This document shows positions 3,291-62,760 of a stretch of 64,000 nucleotides of DNA, in pieces. Numbering within the stretch: position 1 is the first letter of the stretch; each line of letters starts with the position of its first letter. The notes beneath the pieces were generated by a model. It searched no databases. It worked only from the letters and a program-made list of their open reading frames with translations, and was not told the DNA's origin. Source of the DNA: Rufibacter immobilis (GTDB taxonomy: Bacteria; Bacteroidota; Bacteroidia; Cytophagales; Hymenobacteraceae); contig NZ_RJJE01000017.1 of NCBI RefSeq assembly GCF_003721565.1, forward strand, positions 918,636 to 982,635, in the 5' to 3' direction. A program made the translations under genes and the position numbers.

Positions 3291-3310
3291 GACTTTTCTG
3301 CGCGATTTCT

Positions 3311-3347
3311 GTTTTGGGTCTATTTTCTGAAAAACAGCCGCTAAACG
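3311..3347. repeat. Family A palindrome, copy 1 (degenerate left arm)
   Basis: The right arm ends GCCGCTAAACG; the left arm has decayed to GTTTTGGGTCT. Lies between gatB and the family B composite. Confidence 0.6.
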
Positions 3348-3383
3348 GCTATTGTTTCTATTTTTTATTTTCTGGCTTTTCCT

Positions 3384-3506
3384 GGCGCGAGTCTCTGACT
3401 CGTGCCGATGATGAATGGAGTCTCCAGACTCCCTTTGTTCTCTTTGTGGTTCCCGGCGAGTCTGGAGACTCGCTTCACCTTTAGTCACGAGTCAGAGACT
3501 CGCGCC
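3384..3506. repeat. Family B composite: four nested GAGTC palindromes
   Basis: Four GAGTC-N-GACTC palindromes at about 3384-3406, 3417-3432, 3455-3473 and 3486-3506. The outermost two are exact reverse complements over 21 bp, and the inner two also mirror each other. The same order of palindromes recurs, reverse-complemented, at 62625-62760. Confidence 0.85.
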
Positions 3507-8876: not shown

Positions 8877-9704
8877 ATGTTGTTATTAATCAACGGCCAA
8901 CTTCTTCAGGAAAAAAAAGTTTTTCTGCACCTGAATAACCGGGCATTCCAATATGGCGATGGGTTCTTTGAAACAATTCTTCTGGAAAAAGGCCAGGTAA
9001 GGTTGTGGGCCGAGCATTGGGCTAGAATAGAGGAAGCCGCCGCAGCCTTATACTTATCCCTGCCAGCGGGACTTTCTGAGCGGGAATTACCACAACAAAT
9101 CCTGGCCCTGGCGCAGCAGAACCAATGTACAGATTTAGCGAGGGTGAAACTTAAAATATGGCGGGCTGGAGAAGGCCTTTACACCCCGCAGACAGACACC
9201 GCCGAATGGTTGCTGACGGCCCAACCAACGTCCCCCCTTACGCAAACGCCCCTGCGGGTAGGCATCTGCCGAACGGTTCACACCATTCCCTCCCGTTTTT
9301 CATTCTTCAAAGGCATTAATTCTCCGGTGTATGTTTTGGCCAGTAGGGAGAAAACGAAACGCGGATTGGATGATCTCATCCTGCTGGACCCCAAAGATAA
9401 TCTGGCCGAACTGACCTCGTCCAACCTGTTCTGGATGAAGGGGAATGTCCTGTTTACCCCTTCCCTGGAAACAGGCTGCGTTCATGGGGTCATGAGAAGA
9501 TACCTCTTTGAGTGGGCCGCAGAAAATAATTGGGAAGTGCGGGAAGGATTATTCAGGCTGGAGGAACTGCAAAAGGCCGAGGCGCTCATGGCCGGCAACG
9601 TGACCGGTCTGCGAATCATTGAATATGTAGAGGATCAAATCCTTCCTTCGGCTACAGCAGCAGCTCGGCAACTAGTAGAGCAAATCAACCTTACCTTGGT
9701 CTGA
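8877..9704 (+). CDS. Class IV aminotransferase (aminodeoxychorismate lyase-like)
   Basis: A 275-residue fold-type IV PLP enzyme. The start FQYGDGFFETILLEKGQVRLW is the family signature. The PLP lysine is expected in FFKGINS (about residue 145), followed by NLAELTSSNLFW with the conserved glutamate and GVMRRYLFEWA. Short members with FFETI and no branched-chain transaminase features are usually 4-amino-4-deoxychorismate lyase (PabC, folate synthesis). A branched-chain or D-amino-acid aminotransferase cannot be excluded. No pabA/pabB is visible here. Confidence 0.82.
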   Translation: MLLLINGQLLQEKKVFLHLNNRAFQYGDGFFETILLEKGQVRLWAEHWARIEEAAAALYLSLPAGLSERELPQQILALAQQNQCTDLARVKLKIWRAGEGLYTPQTDTAEWLLTAQPTSPLTQTPLRVGICRTVHTIPSRFSFFKGINSPVYVLASREKTKRGLDDLILLDPKDNLAELTSSNLFWMKGNVLFTPSLETGCVHGVMRRYLFEWAAENNWEVREGLFRLEELQKAEALMAGNVTGLRIIEYVEDQILPSATAAARQLVEQINLTLV

Positions 9705-9750
9705 TTTCCGTTTAGGGGCTCTTTTTCCAAAAGCGGCCCCTAAACGGAAA
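9705..9750. repeat. Family A palindrome, copy 4
   Basis: Perfect 15-bp outer arms TTTCCGTTTAGGGGC / GCCCCTAAACGGAAA. It starts directly after the aminotransferase stop codon and lies between convergent genes. Confidence 0.9.
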
Positions 9751-9757
9751 TTACTGC

Positions 9758-13781: not shown

Positions 13782-13819
13782 CCGTTTAGCGCCTCTTTTT
13801 CCGAAATAAGCCCTAAAAC
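13782..13819. repeat. Family A palindrome, copy 5 (degenerate)
   Basis: Left arm CCGTTTAGCGCCTCTTTTTCC, right arm shortened to AAGCCCTAAAAC. Confidence 0.6.
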
Positions 13820-16082: not shown

Positions 16083-16091
16083 AGTAGTGGG

Positions 16092-16131
16092 CGTTTAGGG
16101 GCTGTTTTTGGAAAAAGAGCCCCTAAACGCA
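16092..16131. repeat. Family A palindrome, copy 6
   Basis: Near-perfect arms GCGTTTAGGGGCT and AGCCCCTAAACGC, between the convergent pncB and pncA stops. It is the only plausible terminator structure for either gene, although it lacks a T-tract. Confidence 0.9.
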
Positions 16132-19925: not shown

Positions 19926-20406
19926 GCTACTCTTTCCTTCTACTGAAAAAGTAATTTTAAAGCTTTTACTTCATTTGGCCTACACTTTTGCAATAAAGTT
20001 GGTTATCCCGTATTAAAATATACACCATATACCCATGTATAGCAGCATCTTCATAACTGAGTTCCTTGGCGAACGCCTATGCTCTAATATGTTTTAAATA
20101 CAAACTTCCTTTGCGTTTAGGGGCTCTTTTTGGAAAAACAGGCTCTAAACGCAAAGGCCTTAAAATCAGCCGTTTTCATTAGAGCAACCACGTTCTAGTG
20201 CTTTAAAAATCAACTTCTTATATACTTTTATTAGTGCGTCTGTATGCTTTATAGCTAGGCAAAACTCTATTCCTGAACAATCTCCCGAAAAACTTTTTGT
20301 CTACTATTAATACAATTAGGTTTATCATCAACAGGAACTCTTTTCAGAATTATTTCATTGCACATTCAACTTATACAAGCTTTTAGGCCTTATATAGTTG
20401 AATTAG
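19926..20406. other. AT-rich divergent region between proB and the lyase gene
   Basis: 481 bp containing one family A palindrome (20111-20154) and otherwise AT-rich sequence holding both promoters. I see no gene or RNA. The region between 20200 and 20400 has several TATA-like runs but no full TTTG/TAnnTTTG pair. Confidence 0.5.
20111..20154. repeat. Family A palindrome, copy 7
   Basis: Arms TTGCGTTTAGGGGCT and GGCTCTAAACGCAA, around CTTTTTGGAAAAAC. Unusually for this family it lies between divergent genes. Confidence 0.85.
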
Positions 20407-23376
20407 ATGAAGATAAAGCTTTACCATCCTCTTGTTAAATTCATAATTTTTCTTTTAATTTGCACTTGCTATTCGTCTTCGATTAGTGCCCAAACCGGCA
20501 GCTGGGTTCCCGCTCAGGCAGATTTGAGCTATCCGCGTACGCTATTAAAAGCCGCGCAAGTACCTAATGTGCAGCAGGCAATCACCTCCGGAATTCGGTA
20601 CACACTTTATTCGGGGGTGTACAGCAATGTGACAGGTTCGGCAACGGCCAATAACACTTCTTCCAATGACCGGCGGGCGAGGGCCACTTTTGCCAAAAAC
20701 GCCGCCTTTGTAGCGCTCCTGAACCGGAAACCCAGCGGGGGCACCGTCATCCAGCTTTCAGAGGCTGAACGCGCCGCCTTCGTTTCCAAATCGAAAAAGC
20801 TGCTGGAGGGCATCAACACCGCTGTGGAGGTGTACGCCTCTTTCTCCGGGGCCACGTACACCGAGTGGCAATGGCGATCAAAGGAATTGATTGATTACAT
20901 GGTGGCCTATGACTTGCTGAGGGGCTCGGGTGAACCTATAGATTCTCTGGTTACCGCCCGGGCTAAGCTACAGGAATTTGCGGGGAACCTGTACAAACAG
21001 TCCATCACCCCCTTCTTCGGCACTACATTTTATGGGTCCATCAAGAACAACCACACCTTAATGACTGCCTCGGCCTTAGGCTTGGCAGCGGTGGTACTGA
21101 ACGATGTGGGCGGCACAGATGCCTGGATGCAGCCCACCAACTGGATCAACACCGGCCTCTACCACATGGACAACGTTCTCTGGCGCGATGCCAACCGCCA
21201 GTCTGACCCCAATGTGCTGACCGGCTACGCCGAAGGACCCTACTACTTCAAGTACGCTTTCCTCAACTGTCTGCCCTTCATCCGGTCCATGGGGAATTTC
21301 CTGCCCGATGTGGCCATGAATTACACCTACGGCACCACCACCCGCAGCATCCGGAACCCATACTTTGACCCCAGCTATGACCTGCTGTACGACTGGATTT
21401 CCGCCATTCAGATGCCAGACGGGCGTTTTCCGGCGCTGGAAGATTCCTATATTGACATGGGCATGCCCGAACTGGCCCTCACCGGCAAAAGCAAGTACGT
21501 GAACCCCATGGCCTTTTCCAATCTTTCTACCAAACAGCTGAACACTCTGGCAAAGCAGCTGAAAGATGCCACTGTAGACATGCGGGCGGCTTTTCTCGCC
21601 TCCAATGTGCCTTTCTCCACCCCTGCCCACCAACCGCTCACGGCGCTGCCGCAAAGCGGGAATCTGGTCTTCAGATCGGGCAATGACACGCTGGCCAGCT
21701 ACCTGCACGTGTACGGTAAAAACGGTTTGTCGCAGAAAGTCTCCGGCGGCCACAACCACGGCGATGCCAGTTCTTTTATTCTGCACGCCAAAGGGCAATT
21801 GCTAGCCCTGGACCCCGGTTATTTGAGCAGCACCAACCGAGGCGCGGTGGGCGAAGGAGTGCACCACAACCTGATATTAGTAGACGGGGCCGGTCCGGCC
21901 ATGGGCACGGCGGGAGCCACCAATGACGCCGAAGGCTTTATCCAGAATACTTTCAGCAACGGCCGCCTCAGCTACGGCGAAGTGAAAACCACCTACCGCG
22001 GCGCGGAGATCACCCGTAAAACCCTTCACGTCCGGAACAACTACTTCCTGATCGCCGATGCCGTGACCTCTACCAGTGCCCACACCTACACCTGGCAATT
22101 GCACGGCTATGGCTTAGAGGGAGGCACCGCCGTCACCGGCACGTTCACCGACAGCCTGGCGGCCCACGAAGGCATCTGGCAGAAAAACGGTGTAAACCTG
22201 AAAGCCCACGTCACGGCCACCGATGGCGCCTCTGGCTACGTAAAGGCAACCAACAGTCACGAGCTTACCTACAACACCACCGAAAACCACACCACTCTGC
22301 AAGTGCAGAAAACGGGGGTAGCGCAAACGCAGTTCTTGTCCCTCTTGCAGCCCTACACCACCACCTCGGCTGATGTGAAGACGGAAAGCACGCTTCAGGT
22401 GGCGGCCCTGTCCTCAGCGGAAACCGAGTATCAGGATCTGGCCTTCGCCCAAGGCGATACCAGCACCGTGACCCTGAACAAATTGGCCGAGCCCCTCACC
22501 TCAGATGCGCGCTTCACCTTCTTTTCGCTGAACAAGGCTGGCCATTTCTCCCAGGCGTTTCTGGAAAACGGACGGCAGCTGCAATACGGTTCTAAGGTGG
22601 TGCTGCAATCCAGCCAACGGGTGAACAGCCACTGGGAACGCCAGAGCGATCTCGCCTACGCAGGTTACGTCAGCGATGCCACCGTGCTCACCTTAGCCAT
22701 GGAGGCGGCTCCATCGTCGGTGACCGGAGACCAGGTGGCTTTTTCCCGCTATGATCCCATCAAAAAGAACCTGATCGTCTCTTTCACCGGTTCCTCAGCC
22801 TTTAGGGTGACGCTTGCAATGACCACCTTACCCGTAGAATTGACTCACTTCAGCGCGAAAAGGGTGCGGCAGCAGGTACAACTGAACTGGAGCACCGCTT
22901 CCGAAAAGCAGAACGCAGGGTTTGAGGTGTACCGGAAATCTGCCTCGGCCCCGGAATTCATGAGAATCGGGTTTGTGCCCGGCAGGGGGAACAGCACCAC
23001 AGCCTCACAATATGTTTTCCTTGATGAAACGGCCCCCTCTGAGACTGTCTATTACCAGCTCAAGCAGTTAGATGAAGACGGATCGTTTGAAATGTCTTCA
23101 ATGGTGGCGGTAAAAGGCTCTGAGGAACAAAAGGTTGAGATAACCGTGTTTCCGGTGCCCAGTAATGAAATGGTGCAGGTGCAGTGTGCTGGTGTGGCGG
23201 GTCAGGTAGAGGCTCGGTTGCTCAACAGCAAGGGACAGCTTCTGCTCCGTCAAAAGTTTACCGGCCAAACCCAACTCTCTACCCTGCCCTTAGCTCCGGG
23301 TATGTATTATTTGCAGGTACTGGACCTGAACGGAAAACCCGTTGCGGCCACTAAGAAAGTGCTGGTGCAACACTAA
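20407..23376 (+). CDS. Secreted heparinase II/III-like polysaccharide lyase with T9SS tail
   Basis: A 989-residue multidomain enzyme. A signal peptide covers about residues 1-28. An all-helical toroid follows to about 400, containing RSKELIDYMVAYDLL and the substrate-cleft segment NNHTLMTASALGLAA. The heparinase II/III-like beta domain contains SGGHNHGDASSFILH (His449, His451) and ALDPGYLSS. Residues about 808-905 are a fibronectin-like linker (LPVELTHFSAKR), and about 910-989 are a type IX secretion sorting domain (VFPVPSNEMVQV, LPLAPGMYYLQV). It probably cleaves a uronic-acid polysaccharide outside the cell; the substrate (alginate, heparin-like or other) cannot be read. No SusCD pair lies nearby. 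Confidence 0.88.
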   Translation: MKIKLYHPLVKFIIFLLICTCYSSSISAQTGSWVPAQADLSYPRTLLKAAQVPNVQQAITSGIRYTLYSGVYSNVTGSATANNTSSNDRRARATFAKNAAFVALLNRKPSGGTVIQLSEAERAAFVSKSKKLLEGINTAVEVYASFSGATYTEWQWRSKELIDYMVAYDLLRGSGEPIDSLVTARAKLQEFAGNLYKQSITPFFGTTFYGSIKNNHTLMTASALGLAAVVLNDVGGTDAWMQPTNWINTGLYHMDNVLWRDANRQSDPNVLTGYAEGPYYFKYAFLNCLPFIRSMGNFLPDVAMNYTYGTTTRSIRNPYFDPSYDLLYDWISAIQMPDGRFPALEDSYIDMGMPELALTGKSKYVNPMAFSNLSTKQLNTLAKQLKDATVDMRAAFLASNVPFSTPAHQPLTALPQSGNLVFRSGNDTLASYLHVYGKNGLSQKVSGGHNHGDASSFILHAKGQLLALDPGYLSSTNRGAVGEGVHHNLILVDGAGPAMGTAGATNDAEGFIQNTFSNGRLSYGEVKTTYRGAEITRKTLHVRNNYFLIADAVTSTSAHTYTWQLHGYGLEGGTAVTGTFTDSLAAHEGIWQKNGVNLKAHVTATDGASGYVKATNSHELTYNTTENHTTLQVQKTGVAQTQFLSLLQPYTTTSADVKTESTLQVAALSSAETEYQDLAFAQGDTSTVTLNKLAEPLTSDARFTFFSLNKAGHFSQAFLENGRQLQYGSKVVLQSSQRVNSHWERQSDLAYAGYVSDATVLTLAMEAAPSSVTGDQVAFSRYDPIKKNLIVSFTGSSAFRVTLAMTTLPVELTHFSAKRVRQQVQLNWSTASEKQNAGFEVYRKSASAPEFMRIGFVPGRGNSTTASQYVFLDETAPSETVYYQLKQLDEDGSFEMSSMVAVKGSEEQKVEITVFPVPSNEMVQVQCAGVAGQVEARLLNSKGQLLLRQKFTGQTQLSTLPLAPGMYYLQVLDLNGKPVAATKKVLVQH

Positions 23377-23380
23377 GCAA

Positions 23381-23438
23381 AGCCGTATGGCGTTTAGCGG
23401 CTCTTTTTCCAAAAAGAGCCGCTAAACGCCATACGGCT
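23381..23438. repeat. Family A palindrome, copy 8: 28-bp perfect arms
   Basis: The most perfect copy: two 28-bp arms that match exactly around a CC centre. The outer nine bases, AGCCGTATG and CATACGGCT, are unique to this copy yet still perfectly complementary. It begins 4 bp after the lyase stop codon. Confidence 0.95.
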
Positions 23439-23444
23439 TAATAT

Positions 23445-23493
23445 CCCAAACGAAAGCCCCGCTGGTGCAAGACAAGCGGGGCTTTCGTTTGGG
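23445..23493. terminator. Bidirectional terminator
   Basis: A perfect 19-bp inverted repeat with core AGCCCCGCT / AGCGGGGCT and flanking AAACGAA / TTCGTTT, between the convergent lyase and hydratase genes. Confidence 0.8.
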
Positions 23494-23501
23494 CACAAGC
23501 A

Positions 23502-24266
23502 CTACTTTTTCTTGAAGCCCTGAATGAAATTTCTGGTAAAATCTGACAGCACCAGCGTTCCGCTGATGCCGGCACGTTCCACCAGCAATTGGTCCCAGTG
23601 CTCCGTTCCCTGCCAGAACACCTGTTTCAGGGCGGTGAGGGCCTCCGGATTGTACGCGGCCAACTTAGCGGCGAAGGCCTGCACCGCGGCGTCCATTTCC
23701 TCTACGCTATCAAACACCTCGGCGTACAGGCCTTTCTCCTGAGCCCACTCGGCGCTTCTGAACTCAGTGGCATCTAAGGATAACTGTGAGAAAGCCGCCA
23801 ACCCAATCTTCCGCTCCACGGCCGGCCCCACCACAAACGGCCCGATGCCCACAGCTATTTCGCTCAATTTTACCGCCGCGTGCTGCGTGGCGAAGCAATA
23901 GTCTGTGGCGGCGGCCACGCCAACTCCTCCGCCAATGGCTTTGCCCTGCACCCGTCCAATCACAATCTTGGTGCAGGTGCGGCAAGCGTTGATCACCTTC
24001 GCGAAGCCGGAGAAAAACGCCAGCCCCTGCTCTTTGTCTTCAATGGAGATGAGTTCATCAAAAGAAGCGCCGGCGCAGAAGGTTCTCTCCCCCTCGCTTT
24101 TGAGCACAATGACCTTCACCCGCTCGTCTTGCCCTGCTTGTGTAATGGTATGGGCCAACTCATTTAAAATTGCGCCTGGCAATGAGTTATGCGAGGGATG
24201 GAAAAAGGAAATGATGCCAATTCCGGCTTCGTCTAGGGCAAGGGTTACGTGACCTGTGTCTGTCAT
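23502..24266 (-). CDS. Enoyl-CoA hydratase/isomerase family protein, paaF-like
   Basis: A 254-residue crotonase. The oxyanion-hole segments are GERTFCAGASFDEL and VQGKAIGGGVGVAAATDYCFA; the glutamate in LSEIAVGIGP is in the position of a catalytic acid. It ends the phenylacetate cluster, whose other crotonase (30268-31053) is a clear PaaG. That leaves the 2,3-dehydroadipyl-CoA hydratase step (PaaF) for this protein by elimination. The role is inferred from context, not from a specific motif. It is separated from paaZ by a 291-bp spacer full of repeats. Confidence 0.75.
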   Translation of the reverse strand: MTDTGHVTLALDEAGIGIISFFHPSHNSLPGAILNELAHTITQAGQDERVKVIVLKSEGERTFCAGASFDELISIEDKEQGLAFFSGFAKVINACRTCTKIVIGRVQGKAIGGGVGVAAATDYCFATQHAAVKLSEIAVGIGPFVVGPAVERKIGLAAFSQLSLDATEFRSAEWAQEKGLYAEVFDSVEEMDAAVQAFAAKLAAYNPEALTALKQVFWQGTEHWDQLLVERAGISGTLVLSDFTRNFIQGFKKK

Positions 24267-24459: not shown

Positions 24460-24469
24460 AGAATCATTA

Positions 24470-24518
24470 TTTCCCGATTAGCGGCTCTTTTTCTAAAAAC
24501 AGCCGCTAATCAGGAAAT
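24470..24518. repeat. Family A palindrome, copy 9
   Basis: Arms TTTCCCGATTAGCGGCT and AGCCGCTAATCAGGAAA. The usual GTTTAG is GATTAG on the left and the matching change CTAATC appears on the right, which preserves pairing. Confidence 0.85.
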
Positions 24519-26609: not shown

Positions 26610-26718
26610 ATCTGTAGTTGTTAGTTGCTGGTGGTTAGTCTTTAGTTTCAGTTGTCCGGTTGGGCTCTTTCATCCGTCTTTGTCATCCTTTCTAATTAGC
26701 GAACCCTACCTCCTCTTT

Positions 26719-26805
26719 GTCATCCTGAAAGGACCTTGTGGGCGAACGGTAATTGTGTTTATTCAAAGCTTTTCTAGTTCGCCCACAAGGTCCTTTCAGG
26801 ATGAC
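26719..26805. repeat. Family H inverted pair (GTCATCC type)
   Basis: Two perfect 29-bp arms, 26719-26747 and 26777-26805, each beginning or ending with GTCATCCTGAAAGGACCTTG, separated by 29 bp. Repeats opening GTCATCCTGA are familiar in Bacteroidota genomes. A long hairpin would form in the paa transcript. Confidence 0.9.
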
Positions 26806-26871
26806 ATTACCCTTAATTCTATCACTATGCTTTGTTTGCAATATTTGCGTGCACCTGCCATTTCAGTTTCT

Positions 26872-28922: not shown

Positions 28923-28957
28923 GGAATGCGTAGGCTCTGTACTTAACTTACTATTTT

Positions 28958-28996
28958 GCGTTTAGCGGCTCTTTTTCCAAAAACAGCCCTTAAACA
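28958..28996. repeat. Family A palindrome, copy 11
   Basis: Left arm GCGTTTAGCGGCTCTTTTT, right arm with one loss (CAGCCCTTAAAC). Confidence 0.75.
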
Positions 28997-29061
28997 CCAT
29001 TTGAAAAGAATATCATCAGTTATAGAAGTAAATCAGCTACTGAGTGGCTTATCTCACTCCT

Positions 29062-29105
29062 TTGCGTTTAGCGGCTCTTTTTCTGAAAACAGCCGCTAAA
29101 CGCAA
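29062..29105. repeat. Family A palindrome, copy 12
   Basis: Arms TTGCGTTTAGCGGCT and AGCCGCTAAACGCAA, perfect over 15 bp. It ends 8 bp from the paaH stop codon. Confidence 0.9.
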
Positions 29106-29113
29106 GGCTAGTG

Positions 29114-37087: not shown

Positions 37088-37139
37088 CTGCCGCCGTTTA
37101 GGGGCCGTTTTTCCAAAATAAAGCCTAAACCAGCGGCAG
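37088..37139. repeat. Family A palindrome, copy 14
   Basis: Core arms CCGTTTAGGGGCC and GCCTAAACC, extended by copy-specific outer arms CTGCCGC / GCGGCAG. Confidence 0.75.
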
Positions 37140-38167: not shown

Positions 38168-38208
38168 CTGGTTTGGGGCAGTTTTCAGAAAAAGAGCCGC
38201 TAAACGCC
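38168..38208. repeat. Family A palindrome, copy 15
   Basis: Right arm AAAAAGAGCCGCTAAACGCC intact; left arm altered (CTGGTTTGGGGCAGTTTT). Confidence 0.65.
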
Positions 38209-40161: not shown

Positions 40162-40209
40162 GCCGTTTAGCGGCTCTTTTTCCTAAATCGGGCCAAAACT
40201 GGAAACGGC
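40162..40209. repeat. Family A palindrome, copy 16 (right arm decayed)
   Basis: Left arm GCCGTTTAGCGGCTCTTTTT is good; the right arm is interrupted (GGCCAAAACTGGAAACGGC). Lies within the operon between mocA and the Fe-S subunit gene. Confidence 0.6.
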
Positions 40210-44153: not shown

Positions 44154-44193
44154 GCGTTTAGGGGCTGTTTTTCAAAAAACAGCCCCTAAACGC
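44154..44193. repeat. Family A palindrome, copy 17: 19-bp perfect arms
   Basis: GCGTTTAGGGGCTGTTTTT and its exact reverse complement around CA, starting 7 bp after the hydroxylase operon. Effectively the family consensus. Confidence 0.95.
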
Positions 44194-47783: not shown

Positions 47784-47870
47784 TACCCACCCCTAACCCC
47801 TCCGAGGAGGGGAATCCTCTACAAAGTTGGCGGGAAAAAGTCCCCTCCTTGGAGGGGTTAGGGGTGGGTA
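47784..47870. repeat. Family G inverted pair (GGAGGGGTTAGGGGTGGG type)
   Basis: Perfect 20-bp arms 47784-47803 and 47851-47870, each next to a smaller CCCCTCC/GGAGGGG palindrome. A one-armed relative lies at 62883-62912. Confidence 0.85.
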
Positions 47871-47974
47871 TCACAGTCAGGGGGAAACATTGCAACTTAA
47901 GTAAAGCGGAAACATCGGCTGCTGTCCGAATGGCTAGACCAGCAGAGGCAGGTGCCGTGCTCCCAAATAAACGC

Positions 47975-48020
47975 GGTGCGTTTAGGGGCTGTTTTTGGAA
48001 AAAGAGCCCCTAAACACACC
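47975..48020. repeat. Family A palindrome, copy 20
   Basis: Arms GGTGCGTTTAGGGGCT and AGCCCCTAAACACACC. It lies 20 bp beyond the MFS stop codon. Confidence 0.88.
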
Positions 48021-48040
48021 GGAAAAGAAGAAAGGAGAAA

Positions 48041-51330: not shown

Positions 51331-51452
51331 TGCGTACCCATTGGAGCCTTGAAGATAGGAAAAACCGCTGCTGGTTGGCTTTCTGGAGACGGGAAATTAT
51401 CAACAGCACTGGAAGAAGCGTGCCACGCTGGGTTTAACGATGCAGGCAGATG

Positions 51453-51498
51453 TTTCCGTTTTGGGTCCGTTTTAGGAAAAAGAGCCCCTAAACGGAAA
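51453..51498. repeat. Family A palindrome, copy 21
   Basis: Outer arms TTTCCGTTT and AAACGGAAA; the left inner arm is altered (TGGGTCCGTTTT). Confidence 0.75.
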
Positions 51499-51656
51499 AA
51501 GCATGGCAGGGGCCACCTCTCCTTGCGGTTGCCTTAACAGAGGAGAACACAAAGGGCAACCCCAAGGGATTGCCCCAACTTTAAATACCGTTAAAAAGGA
51601 AAACTACACAGCCGCCCCGCCCTCGCCAAAGGCGACCGAGTAAAACGGTGTTTTCT

Positions 51657-58704: not shown

Positions 58705-58740
58705 GAAGAAGGCCAACCTGCATAAGGTTGGCCTTCTTCC
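58705..58740 (+). terminator. Terminator of slyD
   Basis: A perfect 15-bp stem GAAGAAGGCCAACCT / AGGTTGGCCTTCTTC with a 5-nt loop. It runs directly into family A copy 23. Confidence 0.8.
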
Positions 58741-58780
58741 GTTTCGGGGCCGTTTATAGAAAAACGGCCCCGAAACGGAA
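58737..58780. repeat. Family A palindrome, copy 23, with compensatory changes
   Basis: TTCCGTTTCGGGGCCGTTT and AAACGGCCCCGAAACGGAA: the usual TAGGGGCT has become TCGGGGCC, and the other arm changed to match. This covariation supports selection for, or mechanistic copying of, the paired stem. Confidence 0.9.
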
Positions 58781-62624: not shown

Positions 62625-62760
62625 CTGGCGCGAGACTAAAGTCTCGTGACAAAGGATGATGCGAGTCTCCAGACTCGCCGGGAACCAAGAGCTGTTTTTA
62701 CACACAGGAGTCTGGAGACTCCACCCACCGCAAGGCACGAGTCTGGAGACTTGCGCCAGT
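62625..62760. repeat. Family B composite, four palindromes, inverted relative to 3384-3506
   Basis: Palindromes at 62625-62650, 62661-62682, 62705-62723 and 62736-62760. Reverse-complemented, their order and linkers match the element between alaS and gatB. Confidence 0.85.

Follow-up and report, generated by a model that had tools for sequence, protein, structure and literature searches.

The perfect hairpin that separates two convergent genes of Rufibacter immobilis appears to be a two-way copy of a directional motif that is dispersed, genus-specific and evolving in place. Its outer arms, which carry private sequence, are best accounted for by template-switch copying in place together with retention of the hairpins as terminators at gene ends, an explanation that we consider probable though far from assured. 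Replication-associated template switching at symmetric hairpins would copy one arm to the other side and would sometimes take in adjoining DNA, yielding perfect arms that extend outward with private sequence. Hairpins near stop codons would be retained, and the long outer arms in convergent spacers, judging by their A..T ends, may provide the base for intrinsic terminators that act in both directions. The in-place, two-way motif would be a more surprising finding than this account of the outer arms.

An inverted-repeat search of the window, the whole 64-kb stretch of DNA that was analysed, places the arms of this hairpin (copy 8) at 23380–23408 and 23411–23439. They are 29 nt each, 100% complementary, and enclose a 2-nt loop (CC, 23409–23410). 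Each arm is composed of a family core (23390–23408 and 23411–23429) and a private outer part (23380–23389 and 23430–23439). The initial annotation had reported nine extra complementary bases per side and arms of 28 bp; the extra bases are confirmed, and pairing extends one pair further. Their uniqueness in the window holds as well: AGCCGTATG is present in the two arms alone, at 23381 (+) and 23430 (−), against a chance expectation of 0.35, and AAGCCGTATGG occurs once per strand across 1.26 Mb of the R. immobilis genome. The directional motif described below scores 42.9 on the plus strand and 49.9 on the minus strand of copy 8. The stop codon of the upstream gene (20407–23376, +; 989 aa, heparinase II/III-like) lies 3 nt before copy 8, and the downstream convergent gene (23502–24266, −) belongs to the enoyl-CoA hydratase family. 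The T tract of copy 8 itself is weak; a separate, ordinary terminator-like hairpin (23445–23493) adjoins it, starting 5 nt past its end. Rfam returned nothing at the gathering threshold anywhere in the window.

Three further copies for which private extensions had been proposed (9705–9750, 24470–24518 and 37088–37139) are weaker cases than copy 8. The symmetric copy at 9702–9753, in a convergent spacer, is 87% paired over 9704–9751, but its core is mismatched, and its TTTCCG end is no private sequence, being widespread among family members. The copy at 24469–24518 is symmetric but only 92% paired, and the same copy is found in R. sediminis with nearly identical outer arms. The region 37088–37139 holds an asymmetric copy (37096–37130, −; strands of asymmetric copies denote where the motif consensus reads) whose core forms 12 of 22 pairs, and it is not among the 25 inverted repeats listed out of 28 in the window; by eye, 7 bp pair again past a mismatch. 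Elsewhere in the window, symmetric copies occupy convergent spacers at 16091–16130 and 44154–44193 and a divergent spacer at 20108–20157, and are also found at 28956–28999, 29060–29107 and 47974–48021; the copy at 58737–58780 has a paired core variant, GTTTCGGGG/CCCCGAAAC. Asymmetric copies lie at 3309–3348 (+), 13785–13817 (−), 38170–38205 (+), 40163–40201 (−) and 51449–51502 (+).

The same DNA contains other inverted repeats. A second dispersed family, GAGTCTCCAGACTC / GGCGCGAGTCTC, is present in spacers at 3412–3477 and 62625–62759 of the window and in spacers of the relatives G010 and G009 (L015, L012, L285). A 30-nt perfect inverted repeat with a 29-nt loop, TGTCATCCTGAAAGGACCTTGTGGGCGAAC, is found at 26718–26806; similar pieces occur in spacers of R. 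sediminis and R. glacialis, and a form TGTCATTTCGAAC in Pontibacter (L046). Another 30-nt inverted repeat, TACCCACCCCTAACCCCTCC, 97% paired, lies at 47784–47870, and the divergent spacer at own2 139865 contains one like it. A further spacer palindrome family, CTATGGCGCGGAAGTTACTTCCG, is seen at G002 and G011 loci (L014, L044) and in the G010 stretch.

To define the family, we searched 1.264 Mb of the 4.77-Mb R. immobilis genome for matches to a 16-nt arm, allowing up to two mismatches and using a home-made gene caller. Among the 497 strict copies, 249 have a strict arm on both sides (symmetric) and 248 on one side (asymmetric), or roughly one copy per 2.5 kb of the sequence sampled. About 95% lie outside called genes; of the 23 inside, at least two precede the likely true start (own1 336582, 729258). 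Core pairing is bimodal, with peaks at about 11 and about 21 of the 22 positions. The motif consensus, CTGTTTT.GGCCTgATTTcGGAAAAAGAGCCGCTAAACG, is directional and about 40 nt long, and a matrix built from 226 asymmetric intergenic copies reads CTGTTTT.GGCCTgATTTcGGAAAAAGAGCCGCTAAACGcAA. On the weaker strand, 248 of the 249 symmetric copies score at least 16 (mean 41), in part by definition because they were selected for a strict arm on each side, compared with 63 of the 248 asymmetric copies (mean 4.5). One-way copies are imperfect palindromes, whereas in symmetric copies both strands bear the motif and hairpins can form; a palindrome like copy 8 is therefore the motif overlapped in both orientations.

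A covariance model built from 40 copies has matches in all 16 same-genus genomes, a set that includes G011 (NCBI name Sabulibacter ruber), at least 120–150 in each, as counted from at most 150 candidates scored per genome and with palindromes matching on both strands. Under stricter filters, 28 of 33 genomes of other Hymenobacteraceae have no match and five have one or two. In the same 40 paralogous copies, 69 cells changed on both sides as compared to 30.2 after shuffling, and the count of covarying pairs (10 vs 8.7) is not above shuffles. Among the matches listed from the open-licence PMC literature, no paper deals with this repeat family.

The motif is also present inside genes. In R. immobilis, 28 positions at least 45 nt from gene ends score at least 16; the corresponding numbers are 14 in the G010 stretch, 2 in G015, 23 in G002 and 10 in G011, and a control matrix, reversed or complemented without reversing, gave zero in-gene positions in any of the five genomes. 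Comparison with orthologs at these positions revealed ungapped alignments in 144 of 151 cases and gaps within a 50-nt window in seven; the 151 hit-by-ortholog comparisons are not independent, and 34 of the 144 ungapped alignments were inspected. In the ungapped set, the relative's window scores at least 16 in 72 comparisons, 8–16 in 33 and below 8 in 39, and identity is 0.77 in the window vs 0.73 in the flanks. Histidinol-phosphate aminotransferase (HisC) is only one residue longer at the motif than 1fg3, which we take to be E. coli HisC, and thus contains no 13-residue insertion there. These alignments suggest that the motif evolves in place and that the unit is not simply an inserted 40-mer. 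Insertion of a fixed 40-mer at a site, considered in the initial annotation, is unsupported, given that in-gene alignments are mostly ungapped and that the corresponding spacer of R. sediminis is occupied. The early idea that all strict arms are insertions was abandoned on the same mostly ungapped in-gene alignments.

Comparison of orthologous spacers, proposed in the initial annotation for strains, was carried out across species. R. sediminis has the same convergent gene pair (the 989-aa gene is 88% identical), and its spacer holds an imperfect copy whose flanks are unpaired in register. By eye, TGCTTA and TAAGCA can pair outside this copy across a 4-nt offset, so that the flanks are not wholly unpaired. 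In G005, where the gene is 65% identical, the arms are different: they are 31 nt long with 29 of 31 positions paired, the outer 13 perfectly, and AAAATACATCCTG..CAGGATGTATTTT lies outside a core with two mismatches. The spacer thus already holds a copy in these relatives, and the symmetry of the copy 8 flanks is confined to its own lineage; its symmetric arms seem, as far as these spacers tell, to have arisen with the motif already in place. An empty site that already contains the symmetric flanks, the observation named at the outset as contrary to such growth, was not encountered at copy 8; other spacers were read by eye only. At own.fa 308734, a hairpin follows the orthologous gene in 12 of 16 species, with arms that mostly differ in their letters yet are paired; the left-arm letters are common to G010 and G014, and no hairpin was detected at the threshold used in G001, G004, G007 and G013. 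At own2 395310, the outer arms lie in or beside the last codons of the gene, and the other arm follows in at least 8 of 16 species (by eye). At own2 395310 (L228:15310), own1 830005 and own1 372781, the upstream gene takes its stop codon from a family copy (GTT TAG).

Private paired outer arms are more frequent than chance and are tied to perfect cores. The short ends TTTGCG and TTTCCG belong to the family, and private sequence therefore begins about 24 nt from the centre. In the 131 copies with perfect cores, outer positions 23–34 form 5.11 of 12 pairs, compared to 3.25 in shuffled controls (sd 0.13). The values are 3.60 vs 3.15 for intermediate cores (n = 106) and 3.18 vs 3.08 for weak cores (n = 140), and pairing is at the null rate for poor cores (2.88 vs 3.01, n = 120). 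In twenty of the 497 copies, no fewer than nine of the 12 outer positions are paired, whereas 0.46 such copies are expected; for 18 of these 20, the outer 12-mers occur at most twice over both strands, as the copy's own two arms. Past the first mismatch, the pairing frequency is at once 0.19–0.30 (n = 114), and 0.20–0.35 for arms of at least 26 nt (n = 46). Arms that end abruptly, with null pairing beyond, would be expected if a block had been copied up to a hard end.

Templated inverted copying, one of two processes originally offered for the symmetric flanks, draws support from these abrupt ends and from a block change, inverted loops and a mirrored gene end, and such events are few: a single clean block change plus two clear inversions of a loop, one of them part of that block change. 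The block event was found in the closest pair compared, G002 and G011, a mosaic of 74–95% identity with six hairpins at a flank identity of at least 0.82, two of which belong outside the family. In a 94.6% identical block, the hairpin at g2 170952 reads TACCTGTTTTGCTG in one genome and AGCCTGTTTTCAGC in the other, with the loop inverted. Mirroring the right arm together with the loop reproduces the second form, so that a single inverted copy accounts for six of the differences but not for one more in the arm; the change is unpolarised. Another hairpin of this pair, at 174936, differs by five substitutions in 22 bp, also unpolarised. The loop of the ordinary terminator beside copy 8, GTGCAAGACA, is exactly inverted in R. 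sediminis (TGTCTTGCAC), again an unpolarised change. Among 12 ortholog pairs with well-kept loops (score at least 4), ten loops are direct and two inverted, one of the latter being the G002/G011 block event; all 173 ortholog-pair loops, mostly noise, comprise 70 direct, 45 inverted, 33 ties and 25 loops shorter than 4 nt. The right arm of a G010 hairpin, the 15-nt ACGGTGATTATTCTC, is the mirror image of the final bases of the preceding gene and takes in its stop codon. This case is unpolarised too: R. immobilis, 96% identical over the last 249 aa, has a different right flank, and G001, also 96% identical there, has no copy directly after that stop.

Blocks of 93–95% identity in a 74–88% background are seen between G002:C23 and G011:C111 (L169–L188) and between R. 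immobilis and G010 near own.fa 295–298 kb; they look as if homologous recombination between species were frequent. By eye, where an ordinary terminator adjoins a family copy, a mirrored version of the family arm lengthens the terminator's own arms, giving inside-out hairpins (own.fa 32508, 60760, 212444, 296559, 374752 and 455258), a possible further trace of inverted copying.

Selection on the stem, the other process originally offered, is supported in part, by the context and the ends of long arms. Cores are perfect in 35% of convergent copies, 33% of tandem copies at most 90 nt after a stop, 16% of divergent copies, 12% of far tandem copies and none of the 23 copies inside called genes. Arms of at least 25 nt are most frequent in convergent spacers (32), followed by tandem spacers near a stop (19), tandem spacers far from one (4) and divergent spacers (2). 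The outermost four left-arm nucleotides of the 32 long-armed convergent copies have an A:T ratio of 71:12 (p 2e-11), and these arms therefore look like the bases of two-way terminators. No significant A excess was found in other contexts (21:15 in tandem long-armed copies), and short-armed tandem copies near a stop have the reverse bias (13:64). In an earlier test with 173 copies, core pairing was higher near gene ends (p 6e-5), and the relation of outer pairing to gene context was not significant (p 0.25). Sense-strand mismatches in tandem spacers are 36 G-U and 29 A-C in the family, and 45 and 14 in ordinary hairpins (Fisher p 0.023). The family thus has no bias of G-U over A-C in tandem spacers, counter to RNA-level constraint; this counts against an RNA explanation of the whole family, with a difference at only p 0.023.

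These observations bear on three other explanations of the outer arms. If selection acted alone, on RNA terminators or 3′-end stems, point mutation and compensation would keep and lengthen the arms. The prevalence of long arms in convergent spacers, their A..T ends there and the perfect cores near stops are in line with this view, as are ordinary hairpins in the same genomes, which also have long private stems and a G-U bias. We consider it possible but doubtful, because the family lacks that bias in tandem spacers, its arms end abruptly, loop inversions and the six-difference block exist, and divergent spacers also hold copies (49 of 497, eight with a perfect core). If the core had entered at the tip of terminator hairpins that already existed, the outer arms would be older than the core; this would explain why the outer arms at own.fa 177650, AGGAACCG/CGGTTCCT, are common to R. 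glacialis while the core is different, and why long convergent arms resemble terminator bases. At other loci, however, the core position is common and the arms are different, and the spacers compared at copy 8 showed no empty hairpin bearing its outer arms; removal of the core would, we reason, leave loopless palindromes. We regard this order of events as highly improbable.

A mobile palindromic element, REP- or MITE-like and inserted with or into symmetric flanks, would account for a copy number that is high and nearly confined to one genus, and presence or absence does vary at some spacers (own.fa 219955; G001 at locus 1). A single Y1_Tnp gene (G000:C1:452724, L039) has, by eye, two degenerate family copies within about 400 bp. 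This origin is nevertheless unlikely: gaps occur in just seven of the 151 in-gene comparisons, HisC lacks an insertion of that size, and the relative's copy 8 site is occupied and lacks symmetry in register. By eye, the matrix of 226 asymmetric copies has no conserved GTAG or CGTC tetranucleotide at either end, and the lone transposase is preceded by palindromes of a different kind, which contain GGGATT. A RAYT/REP origin of the family is disfavoured by the single Y1 transposase and these other palindromes; the transposase and its GGGATT palindromes are possibly a REP/RAYT unit of their own.

The sampled quarter, approximately, of the genome contains 131 perfect-core hairpins, and some arms mirror unique neighbouring DNA. 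With hundreds of natural hairpins, strain resequencing would allow a direct count of the contribution that template switching makes to terminators and RNA stems. In the portions of the sources that were available (PMC8794818; PMC8604942), template switching is described as yielding arm homogenisation, stem extension and loop inversion. The Rufibacter family shares the perfection and extension of arms by inverted copying, the inversion of loops and linked multi-base changes. The cases in these portions concern rRNA, microRNA and yeast genes, whereas here the substrate is a dispersed DNA motif of one bacterial genus, and its arms, unlike those cases, grow into unique flanking and even coding DNA. 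REP elements, extragenic palindromes of 20–40 bp at high copy number according to an excerpt of PMC3733652, resemble the family in both respects; unlike the REP/RAYT systems outlined there, the family has no GTAG/CGTC tag, is mostly ungapped in genes and has no demonstrated cognate transposase. Intrinsic bidirectional terminators share the A..T ends of the long-armed convergent copies, whereas in the family the T tract of the core lies within the stem and a G-U bias is lacking.

The closest likeness of the motif would be to DNA uptake sequences (DUS/USS), without assignment to them: a role in uptake is only putative, the motif exceeds them in length and is almost entirely intergenic, and a type IV pilus ATPase was not found. 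The search for the type IV pilus ATPase (PF00437) in this genome gave one sub-threshold match, an AAA helicase; ComEC (PF03772) is present, but also in 10 of 14 control genomes. Among the matches listed from the open-licence PMC literature, no paper describes an uptake sequence of Rufibacter or Hymenobacteraceae. A tentative and rather unlikely reading would give Rufibacter a system of the uptake-signal type, for which the matches listed contain no report from Bacteroidota: the long directional motif, strict in R. immobilis and looser in the four relatives sampled, would be recognised by a putative receptor, spread through recombination of imported DNA and be fused head to head at gene ends, where template switching and selection for termination would lengthen it into private hairpins. 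The motif may instead be bound by a DNA-organising protein. Should cells read it, the motif would be a dispersed self-marking signal in a phylum with a reported preference for own DNA: Riemerella columbina prefers its own DNA, and the part of that paper available to us leaves the motif open (PMC7965970).

Uptake sequences, in the sections of PMC2397512 and PMC1852404 that were accessible, are many strict short motifs with inverted pairs that form terminator hairpins, and their origin is discussed there as point mutation or recombination, not transposition. Set against the DUS/USS of Neisseriaceae and Pasteurellaceae as they appear in those sections, the Rufibacter motif is alike in its hundreds of strict copies (497 in 1.264 Mb), in its presence within conserved genes, mostly ungapped, and in inverted pairs that form terminator-type hairpins, with A..T ends in long-armed convergent copies only. 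In contrast to them, it is about 40 nt long, and about 95% of its strict copies lie outside called genes.
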